Positions 10,824-56,814 of a stretch of 64,000 nucleotides of DNA are shown here, piece after piece (position 1 is the stretch's first letter; each line of letters begins with the position of its first letter). Source of the DNA: Onishia taeanensis (GTDB lineage: Bacteria; Pseudomonadota; Gammaproteobacteria; Pseudomonadales; Halomonadaceae); assembly GCF_003268885.1 (NCBI RefSeq), contig NZ_QLSX01000002.1, positions 212,280-276,279 on the forward strand, read 5' to 3'. Position numbers and translations under genes: made by a program. The notes under the pieces were generated by a model. That model searched no databases. It had not been told where the DNA came from and worked only from the letters and a program-made list of their open reading frames with translations.

Positions 10824-12787
10824 GCCGACGCCTTCTCACCCCCGTTTCTCTGCTGCTGTGCTGCTCGGCCCTTGTCACTATCGTGGCGGCTGGCCTATCG
10901 CAGGACATCGGTTTCAGGGACCCCAGTCTGGTGGCCACCCTGGCACTCACGCTAGCCAAGCTCGCCTGGCTCTGCCACTGGCCGCGCCTGGCACGCAGCA
11001 TGGCCAGCGTCACAGTTGCGTGCCTGACGCTCGGACTCTTGAGCTATCTGCTGCCCGAATACTGGGTCGCTACGGCACGCTGGCAGGCCATTGCCGCCTG
11101 GCTTCAGCCAGGCACGGGCCTAGAGGACTGGCGAGCACCGTTGCTCGCGACACTCTGCCTGATCCTGCTCGGCGGCGCCCAGCTGACGGGGCGCCGTGCC
11201 TCGCTGGGCAGCCCCATGCTGCTCGGTCTGGCGGTACTGATGTGGCTCGCTCAGTTGGACGTTGGCATCATGCCAGCCACGCGGTGGGTCATTGACTATA
11301 CGGCGGCACCGACCGCGCTGGTGCCCATGGGCTGCCTATTGGCCGCTCATGCACTGCGCCTTACCATCACATTCATCGCTGAGCGCCAACTGCTGGTCCG
11401 CCCTCTGTCGATGGCGCTGCTACTCGGCGGCCTGGCCCTGGCATTCTCCCAGCACCTGCAATTCCTCGAGGACCGCCGCCTGCATAGCGTGCTGAAGGAA
11501 GAAAACGACCGGCTGGCCGATAACCTTTCCGGGGAGGTCCTCGATCATCTGCGTGCCATGCGGCGCTTCGTCAACGGCTGGCGGCTATTAGATTCGCCCC
11601 CGGATGCTGCCAGCTGGGCCGTGATGGCCGAGCCGCTGTATCGCGACTTCGGCTATTTCGTGAACATCGCCCTGGTCGAACCCGATTCGCGCATTCGTTA
11701 TGTCTACCCCATGGATGCGGCCAATCAGCGCCTCCTGGGCATAAAGATATCCGAAAACCAGCCTGCCGGGCGCCCGGCCCAGCAACGAGCGCTGATCGAC
11801 CATCAGGAAGCGATTACCGACGTCATCCCACTGCTGCAGGGTCAATACGGCATCATCTACTACCTGCCGACCCAAATCGCCACCGGCCGCTTCATTGGCG
11901 CCAGCGCCATGGTGCTCAGCCTGCAGGCCCTGACCGACACGCTCACGGAGACCGTCGACGCGCAGCGCACCCGGCTCGAACTGCGTCAGGCATCGAAACC
12001 TCTGGCCATCCTGGGGCCCGGCGACGGCAATCGCGCCTGGGCGAACACCGCGCAGATCCATATCGGTGATCATCCGCTGACGCTGACGACCCTGCCCTCG
12101 CGGCTGCGACTGCTGGAGTACCACGCCAGGCTGCCAGCGGTCGGCCTGGCCACCGGTCTGGGCCTTTCCTATCTACTGTTCCTGGTGCTGTTCTCTCACC
12201 GGCACCTGGCCATCCAGCACCGTCTGCTCCATGGCTCCCACGCCCAGCTGCGCCGGGAAATCAAGGCCCGTAGCCGCCTGCAGAAGGAAGTCGAATGGCT
12301 GGCCCGTCATGACGAACTGACCAACCTGGCCAACCGGCGGATGCTGATGGAAACCCTCAAGGCGCAGCACGACACTCGCCCGCTGTGCGTGATGATATGT
12401 GACCTTGATCACTTCAAGCGGATCAACGACAGCCTCGGCCATCCGGCAGGCGACGAGTACCTGAAACGCCTGGGCGAGCTGGGCGAGGCCGTGGCGAGCC
12501 GAGCCGGCGGTCTGTTTGCTCGCTACGGCGGCGAGGAATTCATCGTACTGCTGCCCGGCTGCGATACCGCGCGGGGCCTGCAGGTGGCCGATGAGCTCAA
12601 GACCTCACTCCAGTCCGCCAACCTCCAGCACCATGACGGCGAAGCATTGACCATGAGCATCGGCCTGACCGCCCTCGAGCAAGGGCCTCTGGATATCGCC
12701 ACGCTGATGCAGGTCGCCGACGAGGCTCTCTATCAGGCCAAGGAACAGGGACGCAACCGAATCGTCAGCGCCACGATGCCGGTCTAG
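10820..12787 (+). CDS. membrane diguanylate cyclase with extracytoplasmic sensor
   Basis: This 655-residue GGDEF protein is predicted to make cyclic-di-GMP. Residues 1-210 contain about seven to eight hydrophobic segments, like a MASE-type membrane sensor. About 215-440 is an extracytoplasmic loop resembling a CHASE-type sensor ([18 protein letters not shown]). A final membrane helix (~442-462) leads through a short coiled coil into the GGDEF domain. The active-site motif GGEEF is at residue ~570, and the [14 protein letters not shown] metal-binding segment is intact. Five residues before GGEEF the expected RxxD inhibitory site reads RAGG, so product inhibition may be lost. Its start overlaps the mltF stop by 4 bp, which suggests its signal relates to cell-wall state. 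Confidence 0.88.
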
Positions 12788-12860
12788 CCACGCCGCGCAA
12801 CGACGACCCGAACACCGACGCGCGCGCTGGGTCACGCGCTTTCGCTCATGCCCCTGCCGG

Positions 12861-13391
<531 letters not shown>

Positions 13392-48784: not shown

Positions 48785-49523
48785 TCAGCCCTCGGCTGCA
48801 AATAGCTGGTCCAACTGCTCATGAGCGTAGCGTTCGGGCAAGCAGTCCTCAATGGACTGAACGTCCGACAGCCACTCCTCGCTGGAGCCATCGTTGTTCT
48901 TGATGATGATATCCACCGTAAGCTGGTCGCCGAACCCCTCTTTGAGCTGGGTGACTACATCGCGCACATCCAGAAACTGGCTGATGAAGCTCTGCAAAGG
49001 GATGTTGCGTCCCTCGACCTCCTCGCGACTCTTCACGAACTCCCAGGCCAAGGCGGGGTCTTGATAGACATAAAAAATCTGCACGGCTCGCCCTCGTCTC
49101 AAGGACCGTTGCACATTCTTTCTGGCGACCCCCAACCTCGACAGCGTGCCATCCAGAATGAAGGATTGCCGCTGATTCAGCATCAGGTCATGGATCTTGT
49201 CGACGACGATGGATACGGCGCGCTGAAACAGCCAAGAGTTGTTGCCCGTATACCCCGGGAAGTGATCTCGCAAATCATCAGGATCGATTCGCAGAATACT
49301 GCCGAAGCCTTCGAACCCTTCCAACTTGAGATCATCAAGCGCGGCGACATACTCCTTGGAAATCTCGGTCTTGCCTGCCCCCGGCTAGTCCGCCATAAAG
49401 ATCGATAAGGGTTCATCTTCAGGATGGGAAGTCTTCTTTACTGGTCAGTGACTTGGCAATTCGCATCTTGTGCTTTCTGGCAAAGGCCAAGGCGTCATCA
49501 GCGATTCCCTCGTCATCGAGCAT
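48785..49523 (-). pseudogene. zeta-toxin family kinase, disrupted
   Basis: The 3' part (up to 49324) encodes a zeta-toxin/UDP-GlcNAc-kinase-like fold (SILRIDPDDLRDHFPGY, SFILDGTLSRLGVARKNV). The N-terminus can be read from the ATG at 49521-49523 (MLDDEGIADDALAFARKHKMRIAKSLTS), with AGGAGTAGG upstream. It resembles the N-terminus of intact members. Two lesions separate the parts: the reading frame shifts near 49420-49430 (the right frame resumes at HPEDEPLSIFMAD), and a TAG at 49385-49387 interrupts the Walker A, giving MAD-stop-PGAGKTEIS where MAGSPGAGKT is expected. The kinase should be inactive. Confidence 0.85.
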
Positions 49524-49605
49524 GCACCTACTCCTCATAAAAGCAATCGGGCCACCCATCTAGGGTGGACCGATCAAGGTTTGCGCCGTTGGCCTACCTC
49601 AGTCA

Positions 49606-49840
49606 TCACTCCCACTCAATCGTCGCGGGCGGCTTGCTGCTGACGTCGTAGGTGACGCGGGAGACGCCTTCCAGCTCGTTGATGATGCGGTTGGAGACTT
49701 TCTCCAGCAGCTCATACGGCAGGTGCGCCCAACGGGCGGTCATGAAGTCGATGGTCTCGACGGCACGCAGGGCGATCACTCACTCCTAGCAGCTGCCGTC
49801 ACCGACCACACCCACGGACTTGAGCAATACCGTGACGGCG
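49606..49840 (-). pseudogene. duplicated 3' end of guaA
   Basis: Positions 49606-49821 align without gaps to 55127-55342 of the intact guaA, with about 14 mismatches by eye (roughly 93% identity). Similarity fades over the next ~20 bp. It still ends in ATIEWE and a stop, but internal TAC to TAG and TGG to TGA changes (near 49784-49790) break the frame. It is on the same strand as guaA and 5.5 kb away. Confidence 0.93.
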
Positions 49841-50069
49841 TGTCTAGGTCCCAGTACCACGGCGAAAATATGCGCATCTGCCCCGGGCACCAGCCTGCTC
49901 GCCGGACTCGAACAGGATCGGCTCAGACCCCACTGCCAGCAGATTGGCCCCATCACTCAGCCCAATCATGTCTCGCCCGACATGGATTCTTCTCTCGGTT
50001 ACACTAGCGCGACCGCCGATAGGGTGAGGCTTTCTCACCACGTGTTCACCCAGCCCTTCCCGACCTGTG

Positions 50070-50969
50070 ATGCATTCCATGTCCATTTCCGCACGCCCTT
50101 CGAAGCTGAGCCTGCCTCAGGTCAATCCTGGTGTGTCGACGGTGCTGGAGTATCTGCTGCTCAAGTTTCCGGCCATCGATGAGGCGACATGGCGTGAGCG
50201 CATGGCCACCGGCAAGGTGCATCGCGATGACGGCTCATGGATTACGCCGGCGTCGCCCTTCAAGCCACATCTACGCGTGTTCTATTACCGCGAAGTGGCA
50301 AGCGAGCCGAGCATTCCCTTCGCAGAGCAGACTGTCTATCGAGATGAGCACATTCTGGTGGCCTACAAGCCGCACTTTCTGCCCGTCACGCCCGGTGGGC
50401 GCTACGTGAACGAGTGTCTGCAACAGCGTCTGCGCAAAAGCACGGGGATCGAGGCGCTGCAGGCGGTGCATCGCCTGGATAGAGTCACGGCAGGACTGGT
50501 GCTGTGCTCCCTCAATCCCGAGACCCGCTCGCTGTATCATCAGCTGTTCAAGTCACGACATATCCACAAGACCTATCAGGCCATCGCCGAGATAGACGGC
50601 GATAAGTCATTGGTGGGTCAGCAGTGGGACGTAAAGAATCGCATCGAGCAAAGCGAGCAGCGCTTTCGCATGCGGGTCAGCGCGGGCGACGCCAACAGCC
50701 ATTCGGTGATCCGCTGCGTGCAGCAAACCGACACGCAGGCGCTGTTCGAATTACACCCCGTCAGCGGGCGCCGCCACCAGCTGCGCGTGCACATGCAGTC
50801 ACTCGGCTGGCCGATCCTGAATGACCGCTACTACCCGGTGCTGCAGCCACTCTCGCCGGATGATTACACACGCCCCTTGCAGCTGCTCTCCAAGGGCTTC
50901 GAGTTCATTGATCCCGTGACAAATGAGCCTAGGTGCATTGAATACGATGGCGACCTGGAGCTTAAATAG
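50070..50969 (+). CDS. RluA-family pseudouridine synthase
   Basis: This is a pseudouridine synthase of ~299 residues. The catalytic motif HRLDRVTAGLVL contains the essential Asp, and the C-terminal PVSGRRHQLRVHMQSLG and LNDRYYPVL segments are typical of RluA/TruC-like enzymes. The N-terminus (MSISARPSKLSLPQVNPG if started at 50079) lacks a classical S4 domain. No clear ribosome site marks the start; GTG 50067, ATG 50070 and ATG 50079 are all possible. It is the first intact gene in the guaA-flanked segment. The RNA target is unknown. Confidence 0.82.
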   Translation: MHSMSISARPSKLSLPQVNPGVSTVLEYLLLKFPAIDEATWRERMATGKVHRDDGSWITPASPFKPHLRVFYYREVASEPSIPFAEQTVYRDEHILVAYKPHFLPVTPGGRYVNECLQQRLRKSTGIEALQAVHRLDRVTAGLVLCSLNPETRSLYHQLFKSRHIHKTYQAIAEIDGDKSLVGQQWDVKNRIEQSEQRFRMRVSAGDANSHSVIRCVQQTDTQALFELHPVSGRRHQLRVHMQSLGWPILNDRYYPVLQPLSPDDYTRPLQLLSKGFEFIDPVTNEPRCIEYDGDLELK

Positions 50970-51386
50970 CGTGGTGCTCTGGTCGACCGTTTCTCCGAGC
51001 CCAGGCTCACCTTCGCCATCATTCTGCTGCTGGGAGACGCGCTGATCGCGCTACCGCTGCTGCTGAGAATCAATCCCTGGCTGGCACTGATCCCCATCGC
51101 GCTTTGGGGCGCCGTGGGCTGGGCGCTACAGGTACCGCAGAATAATGAACTGATGAAAGCCCGCGAAGCGCAGGGCGACGGCAACCTTGCAGAGACGTTA
51201 AACGAATCGGCGCTTTATTTGGGGATTGCTATCGGCGCATCAGTCGGCGGACTAGCCCTTGCCATTCAGGTACCAGTCGACATGCTGTCGGTGGGCGCAG
51301 GGGTCGTGGCGCTGTTGGGAATGGGCGTGCAGGTTTGGCTGATGAGGCGAACCATTGCGGGAGGTGAAGCGTGTCCTCATTTTTGA
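50970..51386 (+). pseudogene. C-terminal remnant of an MFS transporter
   Basis: The frame directly after the pseudouridine synthase stop reads GALVDRFSEPRLTFAIILLLG, in pieces, the cytoplasmic-loop signature of a major facilitator family exporter. Four further hydrophobic helices follow. No start codon with a ribosome site precedes it, and the N-terminal two thirds of the transporter are missing. It is therefore read as a truncated gene. Confidence 0.75.
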
Positions 51387-51751
51387 GGTAGTGAACTATA
51401 CCGTTGTTTTCGCTGATATAGAGTGAGAGTTGCTTTTACACCTGTAGCAAGTCGCGGACCATCGTTTGATTGAGATTTTCGTCGCCCATCCTGTCCTCCT
51501 GATGGCTGCACTATAGCCAGTGCAGCTCTGGAGGAGAGGCAACTCATAGCAGTGCTTCGAACACTTCCCACTCGATGATTAATCGATAGATAAATATCAA
51601 TATAAATCAATAACTTATAGTGCTTTGCTTTGTAATAACCATACGAAACACCATGCTCGGACTGTTCACACCAGCGCTACCTAACGCAGCACATCATCTA
51701 CCCATTGACTGAGGCTGTTTGCCGGTAGAAAACCGACTACCAAAAAGTGGC
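51387..51751. other. 365-bp AT-richer gap
   Basis: No gene is supported. It contains the interrupted inverted repeat at 51495-51535 and an AT-rich stretch (51578-51620). A 17-codon frame at 51436-51489 on the minus strand has a strong GGAGGACAGG site but ends almost at once. It may be the stump of a lost gene. Confidence 0.5.
51495..51535. repeat. interrupted inverted repeat
   Basis: The perfect inner arms GCTGCACT / AGTGCAGC have a 6-bp centre and are flanked by the outer arms TCCTCC / GGAGGA. It could be a hairpin, an operator or a transposon-end relic. No T-run follows. Confidence 0.7.
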
Positions 51752-53170
51752 TCAAAAAATAGTTACGTCGTGGTAGTGATACCTAGCCTGGACGTAAAGG
51801 TCCGCATCTGGCTGGACGGGAGGTGGCAGGGGCTGGTTACTCCCATTTGCCAGTGCAACCCCATGCTGCACAAGGCGTAGGCGAGATTTGAGCCTGTTTC
51901 TCTCAGTCACCAATTCAGTGACGGAGTTAAACCATTCTTGTTCCACCGTCTCGATGGCTTCTTGTAGCTTGCTTTCCTCTGCTAAGCGGTCGTGGATTTG
52001 CAGTGATGAGTAATACATGGCCACGGGAAAGTCTAAAGCGCAGGCGGCTGGGGCAAACATTGCGCTATCGCCTTCATGCTTGCCATAGCCCCAGTCAGAC
52101 CAGACTTGATGAGCGGTGGCCCAAATCAAGGCTTTTCCTGCAGCGTTGGTTGAATTTGCAAACGGGACAAGGATATTTGCAACTGGCGCTGCTGCTCGGT
52201 GTGAGTAGTTGAGCGAAAGCGCCTTGAAGAATGCTGTCCAGTGCGCTTGGGACAGTTGTTGAAGTACCGACCCTAAGGCGGCATCCAGGGATGGGTTGTG
52301 GCCAGGAGCCTTGAACAACGCTTGCATCCACGCAGCCCAGTCCGCGGCAGACGTCTGCGCAACTTGAAGTAGCAAAGCCTGCAGTGTGCTCTGGATGCTT
52401 TGCCCGGGACCTGCCGAGCGGTCCTGACACGAATTTGCAACGCTAACGAACTTGAAAACTAGGTTGTTGACCCTGGATGCAAGGACTACGGCTTGCATGC
52501 CGAGCACACTGCAAATCATGAGCGAAAAAAGAACATCGTTTCGACTCTCAATAATGGCGGCAAGCTCAGCAGGTTCGGCGTTGAACATGAAAACCACGGC
52601 CGACCGAAAATCTGACGAAGGGAAGACGTTCATGTGCGGGACCATCTGCCACAACCGCTCAAGATTTCCACTGCTAGCCAAAGATTCGATTTGCTGACGG
52701 AATTCTGGAAACCGCCATTCATTGAATCCAGGACCTACGTCGGTGCTCTCTATGAGGTGCCGTAAACCCGTAATCAGCTGGGTTGACGCGACTTGAGTGG
52801 CAACACCGGAGAGTCCCGCCAGGTTTGCATCTAGTGCCGTTATTGCGCCAAGCATCGCACGAAGCTTGTTGAGTGAATTTCCGACACTAGCATCCCAGTT
52901 GCGAAGTGCGGTCAGCAACCACCGTATTGCTGCCTCCCACGCTTCAGACGCAGCAGCATCAGGAGGCGTCCCCATTGCATACATGTAGGGTAGAAATGGG
53001 AACTCGTCACCAGTGCTGTGACCGATGGGTTCGGCGTCAAAGGCTTGCAACTGAGAGTCCGTGCTGAGTTGAGTGAGTAGTTGGCTCAGTGCAAGCGGTG
53101 CCGTAGAGGCGCCCGGGGTCAAGGCCGCTTGAAAGCGGGCCTGGGCAAGACTCATTGCAGCCGGGTTCAT
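51752..53170 (-). CDS. unknown protein, second gene of the island two-gene module
   Basis: The family is not recognised. The protein has 472 residues and is predicted mostly alpha-helical and Ala/Leu/Gln-rich. There is no signal peptide and no obvious nucleotide-binding or nuclease motif. One or two hydrophobic helices in the middle (VLFSLMICSVLGMQAVVLASRV) could be buried or membrane-associated. The chosen ATG (53168-53170) overlaps the stop of the preceding gene as ATGA and has GGAGG five bases upstream. The in-frame ATG at 53182 lies on that site. Tight coupling implies a fixed stoichiometry with the VPA1262-like protein. GC content is visibly lower than in the core genes. Confidence 0.8.
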   Translation of the reverse strand: MNPAAMSLAQARFQAALTPGASTAPLALSQLLTQLSTDSQLQAFDAEPIGHSTGDEFPFLPYMYAMGTPPDAAASEAWEAAIRWLLTALRNWDASVGNSLNKLRAMLGAITALDANLAGLSGVATQVASTQLITGLRHLIESTDVGPGFNEWRFPEFRQQIESLASSGNLERLWQMVPHMNVFPSSDFRSAVVFMFNAEPAELAAIIESRNDVLFSLMICSVLGMQAVVLASRVNNLVFKFVSVANSCQDRSAGPGQSIQSTLQALLLQVAQTSAADWAAWMQALFKAPGHNPSLDAALGSVLQQLSQAHWTAFFKALSLNYSHRAAAPVANILVPFANSTNAAGKALIWATAHQVWSDWGYGKHEGDSAMFAPAACALDFPVAMYYSSLQIHDRLAEESKLQEAIETVEQEWFNSVTELVTERNRLKSRLRLVQHGVALANGSNQPLPPPVQPDADLYVQARYHYHDVTIF

Positions 53171-54888
53171 GGCGTCCTCCATACGAGATAGTCGCTACCG
53201 CTCAGTTCGTCCCAAAGGTCCAGAAACGCTTGCCGAATCAGCTCGCCATCGGCGACCTTTTGAAGGATGTGGTGCTTCTGGCCAAAACTGTTGACCGATG
53301 TTCCAAGGGACCACGCTGATGCCGGCCCGATGTCTGAGGGGAAAATCAAAAAGCGGTCATGAAACGGCCAGCCAGCGCTGCCTTCGCGTATGCGGAACTC
53401 TAACCGCAGGTCTTTGCAGTTGCCCTTCAAGTTCATGAAGGTCTCAAGTTGTTTATCTTGCCAAGATTGTTGGGGGGGCGGTGCAGACTGTGGCTTCAAC
53501 CCTACCCAGCCTGCAAGGGGGTGACTGCGAAGCCATATCTCAACCCTTTGGCAAAAAGCGACGGCTTCGGATAACTTTTCCTTATCCTTTGCCATCGGAG
53601 GCTCCGCGCCAGCTGTGAGTGCGCGTAAGTCAGCACCTTTGTGTGGGCAGTGGAAGAGCGTAGCAAGAACGTCTTTGGCATCAAGATATGGGTCCCACAA
53701 CCACGCACCAGTCCTGCCATGCATTCGAAGTAGTGCGCGAATGTCCTTGAATGCATCGTCCGTGCCGGCACCCGAGTTCCCTCCGTACTGAATGAATTCC
53801 TTCCGCTCCCGGATGCTCTTTAGGTTATCTCTGAAGACTCTGTTTTCCCGCCATGGCTCGCGCGGATTGGACGTTGGGGTTCCGATAGTGTTTGGAGACC
53901 GTTCTTCAATGAGCGGTACGGCTACCAACTCTAGTGCCCCATTTGGCGCTGGGAGATAGAACTCCCGGGTGCTGATACTTTCCCCTACAACATGGATGTT
54001 CATGTTGATGCTCGTGATGAACGCAGTTTGCGCAGAAGCGCCAAGCACTAATTGGTACTGGTCATCCCATAGAACGTATCTGGCTCCACCTCCAAGTGAG
54101 TGAAGTTGGAAATTCACCAGTGAACCAGTGACATCTTCGGAGCCGTACCCCTCCACGGTTGTGTCTTCATACTTCTCGCATGACACCCTTAGCTGTCGCG
54201 CGGGCATGGAGTTTTGCCAGATGGGCTGTACAAGAAAATCCCCGTTTTGGGAGCTTGAAACCTTTGTCGTCACGACGGTCACAGGCAATTGGATGAGAAC
54301 ATTTCCAAGCCGGTCAGACAGACCATCAATGCCCATCTTTACGAAGGGCCTTAGGTCCGCCGCCAGTTGCTTGAGAAGCTTTGGCTCATCCAAGAGAAAT
54401 TTCACATCTGTTTTCAGACTATCGAAAAGCTCAAGGACATGGGAGCCTTCCCAGAAGTTATTCTTGAGCACACCGTTCCATGGGTGTGGAAGCGCTGTGT
54501 CAGCAGGCACAAATTGCGGAGGCATGGGGGTAAGTGCTCCGACCTTCAATGCAGAAATGCCAGGCTTCCACTCGCCAGCAATGCTGAAATTCTGAAGCGC
54601 TTGCAGGACTTGTTGCGTAGACACCCGATAGCGCGAGATGCCAAATTTCCATGGAGTGCCACGCAGCTCAATCGGCTTATTGGTTAGGAAGTCGGGCTTG
54701 GGGGGACTCCCATCCGGCGGCGGGCTGGGCTCTGCAACAAGCAAACTCATGAAGTTTGAAGTCTGCTGCGGGGCATCTCGGTGGAAGCCGAATATCTCCG
54801 TTACTTCGAAGCTGTTGTAGTTGCCGATTACACCTGGCACCAGCAGCTTTTGCAGGTGGCAAATATGTTCTGTAATACCCCAAGGCAT
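53167..54888 (-). CDS. VPA1262-like protein with C-terminal phospholipase-D-like region
   Basis: This 574-residue soluble protein has an N-terminal part (FEVTEIFGFHRDAPQQTSNFMSLLVAE) that recalls proteins annotated as VPA1262 family; this assignment is from memory and tentative. The C-terminal third resembles a degenerate phospholipase-D-like fold. WDPYLDAKDVLATLF lies at ~398-412, LRALTAG at ~421-427, then FHDRFLIFPSD with His510 and Arg512, and SLGTSVNSFGQK, the usual order in PLD-like nuclease modules. The HxK pattern is HxR and the spacing to Asp is longer than canonical HxKx4D. It overlaps the next gene by 4 bp. A GGGGG site precedes the ATG. It lies inside the guaA-flanked island. Confidence 0.8.
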   Translation of the reverse strand: MPWGITEHICHLQKLLVPGVIGNYNSFEVTEIFGFHRDAPQQTSNFMSLLVAEPSPPPDGSPPKPDFLTNKPIELRGTPWKFGISRYRVSTQQVLQALQNFSIAGEWKPGISALKVGALTPMPPQFVPADTALPHPWNGVLKNNFWEGSHVLELFDSLKTDVKFLLDEPKLLKQLAADLRPFVKMGIDGLSDRLGNVLIQLPVTVVTTKVSSSQNGDFLVQPIWQNSMPARQLRVSCEKYEDTTVEGYGSEDVTGSLVNFQLHSLGGGARYVLWDDQYQLVLGASAQTAFITSINMNIHVVGESISTREFYLPAPNGALELVAVPLIEERSPNTIGTPTSNPREPWRENRVFRDNLKSIRERKEFIQYGGNSGAGTDDAFKDIRALLRMHGRTGAWLWDPYLDAKDVLATLFHCPHKGADLRALTAGAEPPMAKDKEKLSEAVAFCQRVEIWLRSHPLAGWVGLKPQSAPPPQQSWQDKQLETFMNLKGNCKDLRLEFRIREGSAGWPFHDRFLIFPSDIGPASAWSLGTSVNSFGQKHHILQKVADGELIRQAFLDLWDELSGSDYLVWRTP

Positions 54889-55044
54889 TGCGTTCCCCCT
54901 TGTTTATGCAACCTCTTTTTTGCGATGGATGCCCAATTCCTCATTAGATGCCATTCAGGTAGAAACGAAAGTTCCGGCACTGACATTCACTATGACCTGA
55001 CATGGTATCGTTAACACGTCCGCTTGAGCGTTCACTTCATGCCA

Positions 55045-55086
55045 TAAAAAATGCCATTGATAATGCAGTAAACATCATCAATGGCA
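55045..55086 (-). terminator. Rho-independent terminator of guaA
   Basis: TGCCATTGAT and ATCAATGGCA form a 10-bp stem with a 15-nt loop and are followed by TTTTTT on the minus strand, about 40 bp past the guaA stop. Confidence 0.85.
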
Positions 55087-55126
55087 CCCAATAAACATTA
55101 TGAAATCAACAGGTTAAATAATAGTC

Positions 55127-56704
55127 TCACTCCCACTCGATCGTCGCGGGCGGCTTGCTGCTCACGTCGTAAGTCACGCGGGAAACGCCTTCCAGCTCGT
55201 TGATGATGCGGTTGGAGACCTTCTCCAGCAGCTCATACGGCAGGTGCGCCCAGCGGGCGGTCATGAAGTCGATGGTCTCGACGGCGCGCAGGGCGATCAC
55301 CCACTCGTAGCGGCGGCCGTCGCCGACCACGCCCACGGACTTCACCGGCAGGAAGACGGCGAAGGCCTGGCTAGTCTTGTGGTACCAGCCGGCGTTGTGC
55401 AGCTCTTCGATGAAGATGGCATCGGCCTCACGCAGGATGTCGGCGTATTCCTTCTTCACTTCGCCGAGAATGCGTACCCCGAGGCCCGGCCCCGGGAAGG
55501 GGTGACGGTAGACCATGTCGTAGGGCAGGCCGAGCTCGACGCCGAGCTTGCGCACCTCGTCCTTGAACAGCTCGCGCAGCGGCTCGACGAGCTTGAGCTT
55601 CATGGTCTCGGGCAGGCCACCGACGTTGTGGTGCGACTTGATCACGTGCGCCTTGCCGGTCTTGCTGGCGGCGGACTCGATCACGTCAGGGTAGATGGTG
55701 CCCTGAGCCAGGAAGTCGACGCCTTCGATCTTGGCGGCCTCGGTATCGAACACGTCGATGAAGGTGTTGCCGATGATCTTGCGCTTGGCTTCCGGGTCGT
55801 TGACGCCTTCGAGCTTGCCGAGGAACAGGTCTTCGGCATCGACGCGGATCACCTTGACGCCCATGTGCTGGCCAAAGGTTTCCATCACCTGGTCGCCTTC
55901 CGCCTTGCGCAGCAGGCCGTTGTCGACGAACACGCAGGTCAGCTGGTCGCCGATGGCCTTGTGCAGCAGCGCGGCAACCACGGAGGAGTCGACGCCACCG
56001 GAGAGACCCAGCAGCACGTGACGGTCGCCGACCTGCTCGCGCACCCGGGCCACCTGATCCTCGATGATCTGGGCCGGGGTCCACAGGCGCTCGGACTGGC
56101 AGATATCCAGCACGAAGTGCTCGAGGATGCGCTGGCCCTGCAGGGTGTGGGTCACCTCGGGGTGGAACTGCACGCCGAAGAAGCGCTTCTCTTCCCAGCT
56201 CATGGCGGCGATCGGGCAGCTCGGGGTGGAGGCGGTCACGGTGAAGGTATCCGGCACCTCGGCGACCTTGTCACCGTGGCTCATCCACACGTCGAGCAGC
56301 GGCTTGCCGCTGTCGTGGTCGATGTGGTCCGAGATGTTCTTGAACAGCGCGGTCTCGGCGTCCAGGCGAATCTGGGCGTAGCCGAACTCGCGCTTGTTGG
56401 AACCGGCCACCTTGCCGCCGAGCTGCTCGGCCATGGTCTGCATGCCGTAGCAGATGCCGAGCACCGGCAGGCCCATCTCGAACACGCACTGAGGCGCACG
56501 GGGCGAGTCGAGCTCGGTGACAGACTCCGGGCCACCGGCGAGGATGATGCCGTTGGGGTTGTACTCGCGAACCTCGTCTTCGGTGATGTCGAAGGCGCGC
56601 ACTTCGGAGTACACGCCGATCTCGCGCACGCGGCGGGCGATCAGCTGGGTGTACTGGGAGCCGAAATCGAGGATCAGGATCTTGTGGGCGTGAATATCGG
56701 TCAT
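55127..56704 (-). CDS. guaA: GMP synthase (glutamine-hydrolysing)
   Basis: GuaA converts XMP, glutamine and ATP to GMP. The 525-residue protein has the same length as in E. coli. The N-terminal class I amidotransferase contains [22 protein letters not shown], the nucleophile in [10 protein letters not shown], and the HPE motif. The ATP-pyrophosphatase domain has the P-loop [15 protein letters not shown]. The C-terminal dimerisation domain ends [17 protein letters not shown]. The start MTDIHAHK at 56704 matches the family. An upstream ATG (56731) adds nine residues. It follows guaB on the same strand with a terminator between them. Its 3' end is duplicated at 49606. Confidence 0.97.
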
Positions 56705-56814
56705 GAAGAAAACATCTCTGTGAGGCCGCAAGCCAGTCCAAAAGCTAGCGGGTCAAGACACCGTGTCTGGATACCCAACCGGGGCCGGGTACCGGGTCAC
56801 TCAACCCGCCGGTC

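Follow-up and report, generated by a model that had tools for sequence, protein, structure and literature searches.

A candidate two-gene anti-phage module with a predicted phospholipase D fold in a guaA mini-island of Onishia taeanensis

Introduction

What might a pair of overlapping genes do when it forms the whole cargo of a 3.6-kb island at the 3' end of guaA? The question is raised by a 64,000-nucleotide stretch of the Onishia taeanensis genome (contig NZ_QLSX01000002.1, positions 212,280 to 276,279), here called the window, whose numbering is used for all positions. The pair consists of gene 1, which encodes a protein of the VPA1262_N family, and gene 2, which encodes a helical partner (Table 1). 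A preliminary description of this DNA, made from the letters alone, had noted two long genes with an ATGA overlap and a GC content below that of their surroundings, isolated in a guaA-flanked island, and had read them as a possible anti-phage arrangement. The layout is borne out: both open reading frames (ORFs) are intact, they overlap by ATGA, and the GC content is 0.538 for the pair against 0.629 for the window. The longest gene 2 ORF begins at 53182; judged by its sequence context, the ATG at 53170 is most likely the start, giving the ATGA overlap with GGAGG upstream. A whole-genome search finds a single copy of gene 1 in this genome, and a scan for consensus promoters and terminators returned nothing. 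On the evidence assembled below, we lean somewhat towards the pair being an undescribed two-gene module directed against phages or other mobile elements, in which gene 1 would supply a phospholipase D (PLD)-type effector and gene 2 a solenoid sensor or regulator.

Results and Discussion

The pair as an inherited unit

Relatives of gene 1 were collected in a pattern-limited scan of the genome contigs of 84,980 species with an eight-sequence alignment. Eighty of the 94 relatives were kept as loci and, together with seven plasmid or phage records, make up a set of 87 (L and G numbers are our labels for compared loci and genomes), which includes the near-duplicates L034/L035, L046/L049 and L008/L053. 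A partner model trained on 65 genes picked by adjacency, and run on 5725 stop-to-stop frames from all loci and the window, matches in 83 of the 87 loci, always downstream of gene 1 and on the same strand, a count that is to be read as a test of specificity; no match was seen elsewhere among these frames at E 0.01. The loci with the pair are spread over Pseudomonadota, Bacteroidota, Firmicutes and others, and the first downstream ORF of at least 150 aa overlaps or abuts gene 1 in 70/87. As for the exceptions, L007 and L085 give no match on contigs that stop just past gene 1, L075 has none within 1.6 kb downstream, and L093 (Sporosarcina) carries an overlapping 604-aa gene (11557-13371) that neither the partner model nor Pfam matches and that, from its sequence, may be a diverged or exchanged partner. 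Weak partial matches are seen at L037 (E 2e-10) and L067 (E 1e-4), an insertion sequence separates gene 1 from its partner at L002, the gene 1 frame is broken at L033, and the partner is in pieces at L045 and L070.

A test free of adjacency is provided by 339 genomes across the phylum, chosen regardless of it. Two of them (our genome and G501) have full-length gene 1, and the same two have full-length gene 2, overlapping gene 1; of two further genomes, G488 has just a partner fragment, which contains an internal TGA, and in G548 the match is limited to the PLD side of gene 1. The pairwise distances of the two proteins are correlated (Mantel r 0.895; none of 2000 permutations reaches it) across the 69 loci left after removal of L035, L045, L049, L053, L070 and loci lacking either protein, and both genes are under purifying selection, with ratios of nonsynonymous to synonymous substitution (dN/dS) of 0.135-0.25 in eight comparisons. 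An all-against-all BLAST of 1013 neighbours revealed no recurrent third gene, the widest cluster reaching 6 of the 87 loci. The partnership noted in the preliminary description is borne out in other genomes: the partner lies downstream in nearly all loci, and full-length copies occur only together in the adjacency-free sample. The pair is co-inherited, and it has moved horizontally as the cargo of a guaA island.

Scans of viral contigs with gene 1 and with the long form of the family (see below) returned no relative. One phage record does match, L007 (MT837468.1), an unverified 6.8-kb faecal contig that may be bacterial and not phage; there, an 815-aa protein near gene 1 resembles models of the HNH-effector type over its first 110 residues.

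Gene 1: a VPA1262_N protein with a predicted PLD fold

The resemblance to VPA1262 proteins, earlier proposed as tentative, is now firm: gene 1 scores 297.8 bits (E 1.4e-88, residues 77-561) against NCBIfam VPA1262_N (NF040700), for which the curated cut-off is 80 bits. It falls below the cut-off of the full-length VPA1262 family (NF040699; 325 bits, about 1026 positions), with 24.2 bits confined to positions 296-524. Two of 293 genomes in a sample of the order pass the family cut-off, namely our own and G156, the latter with a long-form protein.

The AlphaFold2 (AF2) model of gene 1 has a mean predicted local distance difference test score (pLDDT) of 88.5 and a predicted template-modelling score (pTM) of 0.65. 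Its N-terminal part is predicted to be beta-rich, with an immunoglobulin (Ig)-like beta-sandwich at about residues 203-290 that resembles the Ig-like domains of glycoside hydrolase family 2 enzymes (Z about 8); this match may simply reflect a common arrangement. The C-terminal part is where the preliminary description had placed a PLD-like region, and the motifs it quoted, with His510 and Arg512, are located as it said. Comparison of the model by VIA-align supports a PLD fold for residues 358-573, with nucleases among the matches: 4urj ('BJ-TSA-9', which we take to be a FAM83 protein) gives Z 11.9, NucT 11.8, Nuc 11.4, Zucchini 11.0 and SauUSI 10.9, at a root-mean-square deviation of 3.3-3.7 and over gene 1 residues from about 343-365 to 563-573 (139-157 residues aligned for the latter four). 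Further matches are FAM83B (Z 10.5) and MITD1 (Z 8.1, 16% identity), the PLD fold of which reportedly binds membranes and which presumably also has the HDR tripeptide of gene 1. Searching PDB sequences with a 23-row alignment of the domain gave nothing credible, so the assignment rests on fold comparison. Pfam PLDc_2 (PF13091) does not match gene 1 at E 1, and a viral fold library gave no match at E 0.001 or better. Taken together, the model indicates a PLD fold with one motif per chain.

The putative active site is strongly conserved. D399, H510, D511 and R512 are invariant in all 75 aligned sequences, and S531 and N533 are present in 73 of the 75, the remaining two rows having gaps there; the GTSVN segment to which S531 and N533 belong has its counterpart in PLD nucleases in GSxN. 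The retention of the His, Arg, Ser and Asn residues argues for a working phosphate site. The catalytic consensus of the superfamily is HxKx4(D/E) (PMC6008594), and the domain, while PLD by fold, fails that definition by motif.

Gene 2: a predicted alpha-solenoid

The AF2 model of gene 2 (471 residues, from 53167 down; pLDDT 92.6, pTM 0.89) is composed entirely of helices and is confidently predicted to be an alpha-solenoid, which agrees with the helical partner lacking a recognisable motif that had been read from the sequence. Neither Pfam nor NCBIfam matches it at E 1, and a PDB sequence search with its alignment gave nothing credible. Foldseek returned no structure below E 0.001, the neighbours being solenoid-like and none of them specific, and the best VIA-align Z of 8.2 is under the level that the tool ascribes to chance among helical repeats.

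The guaA island

The 11-mer ATCGAGTGGGA occurs exactly twice in the window, at 51566 and 55131 in the same orientation, and because these repeats bracket just the pair, the pair is the sole cargo of a 3.6-kb guaA island, as had been supposed. The 3' end of guaA is a published integration site with the attachment core GAGTGGGA (PMC7775301), and ATCGAGTGGGA contains this core at both ends of the island. P4-type integrases are described as frequent in guaA islands (PMC7775301). None was found here: the island consists of the two genes only, and a tblastn search of the window with a single query, the integrase of a Bordetella island, gave a best E of 0.066.

The island DNA is 89.6% identical over 3.4 kb to L015 (Bordetella genomosp. 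5) and 88.4% identical to L019 (an Oxalobacteraceae isolate), whereas guaA itself is only 72% and 71% identical in these comparisons; the island has therefore moved recently. The BLAST match to L019 ends at 51566, coinciding with the distal repeat, and that to L015 at 51638. In L015 the order is a tyrosine integrase (Arm-DNA-bind_3) beside guaA, a Schlafen/AlbA_2 protein, the pair, AbiEi and a partial AbiEii; the integrase match in L019 is in two pieces in different frames. The pair likewise adjoins guaA in Burkholderia MS389 (L063), guaA having been located in all three by tblastn with the copy in the window.

The slot is hypervariable in the genus (window 50970-55126). We compared seven genomes, including our own and one other of the same species, and took the interval from guaA to the pseudouridine synthase gene from the other six (L126-L131). 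None of these six stretches matches the pair, each has other cargo, and five contain proteins of PADLOC systems (ten chosen proteins were searched against PADLOC and seven against Pfam). L126 has type III restriction-modification, its methylase match being a 247-aa piece that may be interrupted; L127 has OloA and OloB of Olokun; L128 and L131 have type I restriction-modification; and L130 has an LmuB protein of Lamassu type, with a 386-aa neighbour that found no match. The sixth, L129 (8127-9990), is plausible yet unrecognised: its main cargo is a SIR2-domain protein with partial ThsA matches beside a ParA/AAA_31-like ATPase that no PADLOC model matches, and the two may form a further two-gene system not yet recognised. 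The slot is thus mostly a defence slot in this genus. For S. maltophilia, a defence island flanked by guaA and pgrR is called the most diverse in systems (PMC11680222). The link to guaA is accordingly not the housekeeping association that would have spoken for another role; it is a published integration site at which the cargo differs in all six genomes.

Table 1. Features of the gene pair and its surroundings in the window
Feature	Position	Strand	Basis
Gene 1, 573-aa VPA1262_N-family protein	53167..54888	minus	ORF, NF040700 match, AF2, VIA-align
Gene 2, 472-aa partner, predicted all-helical solenoid	51752..53170	minus	ORF, AF2
Predicted PLD-fold domain, gene 1 residues 358-573	53170..53817	minus	VIA-align
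FHDRFLIFP, residues 509-517, variant of the HKD motif (H510 retained, R512 for K, P517 for D/E)	53338..53364	minus	alignment
GTSVN, residues 529-533	53290..53304	minus	alignment
GGAGG, Shine-Dalgarno-like, ahead of gene 2 ATG, within gene 1	53176..53180	minus	sequence
att-like repeat ATCGAGTGGGA, guaA 3' end	55131..55141	minus	repeat search
Second att-like repeat ATCGAGTGGGA, distal island end	51566..51576	minus	repeat search
guaA, integration target; longest ORF, true start uncertain	55127..56731	minus	ORF
Older displaced copy of guaA 3' end, 93% identical	about 49605..49823	minus	BLAST
Pseudouridine synthase (PF00849), far-side boundary of slot	50067..50969	plus	Pfam; BLAST match in all six congeneric stretches

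Two further observations concern the surroundings of the island. Beside the distal repeat lies a 90-aa plus-strand frame (51114-51386) that is 119 aa long in L126; its DNA resembles the 3' end of a 393-aa transporter-like ORF in L127 and L130, and it is probably a remnant. At 48785-49416 on the minus strand is a Zeta-toxin-like gene without an in-frame N-terminal part (PF06414, E 3.3e-29, model positions 44-197 of 199), overlapped upstream by a 77-aa frame (49183-49416) without a Pfam match; the stretch looks like a decayed toxin copy and recurs in G894 (L126), a genome of the same species.

Neighbours at other loci

Known defence genes are found near relatives of the pair, which the preliminary description had left as a point to check. 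Apart from AbiE in L015, they include a CBASS cyclase with a four-transmembrane effector, one gene away from the pair (L005); HsdS and an LmuA-like DUF4297 protein 6-7 kb upstream, plus a reverse transcriptase and an integrase (L006); and HamB of Hachiman (L046). At L003 there is a reverse transcriptase, and annotated restriction endonucleases lie to either side, of which the one tested has no PADLOC match at 1e-10. Proteins whose first 110-150 residues resemble PDC-M68A and endonuclease-effector models occur at L007 and L029, and L004 has a helicase-family protein of 1698 aa that weakly matches mad2 and DrmD.

As a control, 140 of 328 proteins near gene 1 (within 3 kb) were compared with 140 of 185 far from it (at least 6.5 kb), all of 150-1200 aa and drawn from the 87 loci minus three near-duplicates. 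At 1e-10 the near set matched 220 PADLOC models and the far set 88; these are counts of models, which are redundant, and not of proteins. Phage_integrase, found in 6 of the 140 near proteins, is absent from the list of 25 families for the far set. The difference between near and far neighbours is only supportive.

Relation to known families and systems

Gene 1 is a clear member of VPA1262_N, and five annotated plasmid relatives carry this name, which comes with no stated function; the helical partner lies outside the model. Profile comparison by hhalign shows homology between gene 1 and the N-terminal half of the long VPA1262 family (E 4.6e-9; 0.29 with a reversed profile as control), which has an HDR motif. 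The long form is a single polypeptide (1053-1135 aa in the ten proteins compared), whereas genes 1 and 2 encode two proteins. We considered whether the long form is a fusion of gene 1 and gene 2 and do not claim this, as the match of its C-terminal half to gene 2 does not clearly surpass the reversed control (E 0.042 against 0.08); hints from a single-sequence hhalign (E 0.0039, probability 8.6) and from four sequences (E 0.025) did not improve with more members.

With Nuc, NucT, Zucchini and SauUSI, gene 1 shares the predicted fold and a single H-motif per chain, and it differs from them by HxR in place of HxK and by Pro in place of Asp or Glu. The motif of SauUSI is given as HxKx4E (PMC7913695). 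Compared with SauUSI and the one-motif nucleases, gene 1 has no recognised ATPase or target-recognition domain, a different N-terminal part and a dedicated partner. An HDR-type PLD domain is what it has in common with PDC-S05 and with stand-alone HDR-PLD proteins, although the latter keep Asp at the acid position (HDRIIFID, HDRFLVVD, HDRFIAID) where gene 1 has Pro. These stand-alone proteins, encoded at L011 (1432-2202), L111 (5358-6977) and L112 (4956-6731), have other N-termini joined to the same HDR-type PLD domain; they match PDC-S05 at E 1e-18, 1e-11 and 3e-9, respectively, and L112 is above the Pfam cut-off for PLDc_2, with L011 and L111 below it.

In the literature, VPA1262 is named in papers, and the family names NF040700 and 'VPA1262 family' were not found. 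A search on PLD two-gene and HEAT-repeat defence systems, which covered titles and the beginnings of abstracts, with supplements and subscription papers outside it, did not yield a recognisable account of the pair, and the main text of DefensePredictor contains neither 'PLD' nor 'VPA12'. It is possible that the pair has already been described under another name.

Weighing the interpretation

Several of our results weigh against a defence module with a PLD-type effector. The fold assignment depends on a second-look aligner and on lower Foldseek rows, since for the whole gene 1 chain Foldseek places low-TM matches to Ig and glycosidase structures first, with PLD chains such as Zucchini (prob 0.97-0.98) beneath them. 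More directly, the Lys position of the HKD motif is Arg in all 75 aligned sequences, and the acid position is Pro in 71, Ile in three and Arg in one. Judged from the alignment, these losses could fit a pseudo-enzyme, that is, a defence module in which the PLD fold binds membranes, phosphates or the partner, while another part of the complex performs the action, for example membrane disruption, scaffolding or sequestration. The fold matches to 4urj, FAM83B and MITD1 point the same way, FAM83 proteins being pseudo-PLDs without PLD activity (PMC6008594). The FAM83 proteins except FAM83D, however, have lost exactly the His that is invariant in gene 1 (PMC6008594), and the conservation of H, R, S and N across divergent rows would be unusual for a dead site. 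We regard the pseudo-enzyme as unlikely, though it is the likeliest of the rival readings.

The context also has its contrary side. Neither protein rises above noise in PADLOC 2.0 (gene 1, E 0.052 to PDC-S05; gene 2, E 0.059), many of the sampled neighbours of the relatives are ordinary metabolic or regulatory genes, and four of eight chosen neighbours (from L032, L062, L021 and L003) found no match at 1e-10. Part of the correlation between the two sets of protein distances would arise from shared descent in any case, and the adjacency-free sample yields one pair-bearing genome, G501, besides our own. The founder, VPA1262, belongs to the island VPaI-6 of V. parahaemolyticus, whose described content is an integrase, colicins, a hydrolase and hypothetical proteins; the passages on VPaI-6 in PMC1464126 name no restriction system. 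Since guaA islands also bear antibiotic and arsenic resistance (ICERspD18B, PMC7775301), the pair might be cargo for stress, competition or host interaction that came to lie at guaA by chance. Against such a role stand the PADLOC proteins in the slot of five of the six other genomes, with the SIR2/ParA-like pair in the sixth, and the fact that Pfam, NCBIfam and PADLOC recognise no transport, secretion, metabolic or regulatory domain in either protein; we consider it improbable. An addiction pair resembling toxin-antitoxin systems, with gene 1 as a toxic nuclease, gene 2 as its neutraliser and stabilisation of the island as the effect, would suit the overlapping layout, the near-obligate co-occurrence and the presence on islands and plasmids, but neither protein matches a toxin-antitoxin family in Pfam, NCBIfam or PADLOC and both are far larger than the usual components of such systems, which makes it very improbable, with the proviso that the pair could be both.

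The anti-phage arrangement first proposed for this locus is thus supported by the fold, the co-occurrence and the context of the slot. The 'PLD-type nuclease or phosphodiesterase' of that proposal stands as regards the fold but not as regards the motif, a degenerate form with HxR where HxK is expected and Pro at the acid position, and catalysis, a target and anti-phage activity are what we infer for the pair.

Proposed mechanism and significance

If the pair is a defence module, its effector would be the PLD domain of gene 1, which would most likely act on nucleic acid or another phosphodiester as a nuclease or phosphodiesterase. Gene 1 would work as a dimer in which His510 is the nucleophile and Arg512 binds the phosphate instead of the Lys. 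The gene 2 solenoid, perhaps together with the beta-rich N-terminal region of gene 1, would sense a cue of infection; alternatively, gene 2 may be a brake that keeps the effector inactive until infection. Since no modification enzyme or ATPase is recognised in the 3.6-kb island, self and non-self would be distinguished by sensing, in a manner resembling abortive infection, and not by marks on DNA. In its most specific form, this model describes a widely dispersed two-protein immune system in which an HxR PLD-fold phosphodiesterase lacking the HKD acid is governed by an alpha-solenoid switch and carried on a guaA mini-island, a picture that we offer tentatively and give slightly less than an even chance.

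For the genus, the 3' end of guaA emerges as a compact defence slot worth mining, in agreement with the S. maltophilia island (PMC11680222). For the VPA1262 family, until now a name derived from a locus tag, the results provide a conserved partner, a predicted fold and a strong functional context. Should the pair protect its host, it would count as a further two-gene immune system, one whose PLD-type site is unusual, and it would offer a simple test of whether HxR PLD domains, which also occur in relatives of PDC-S05, are active enzymes.

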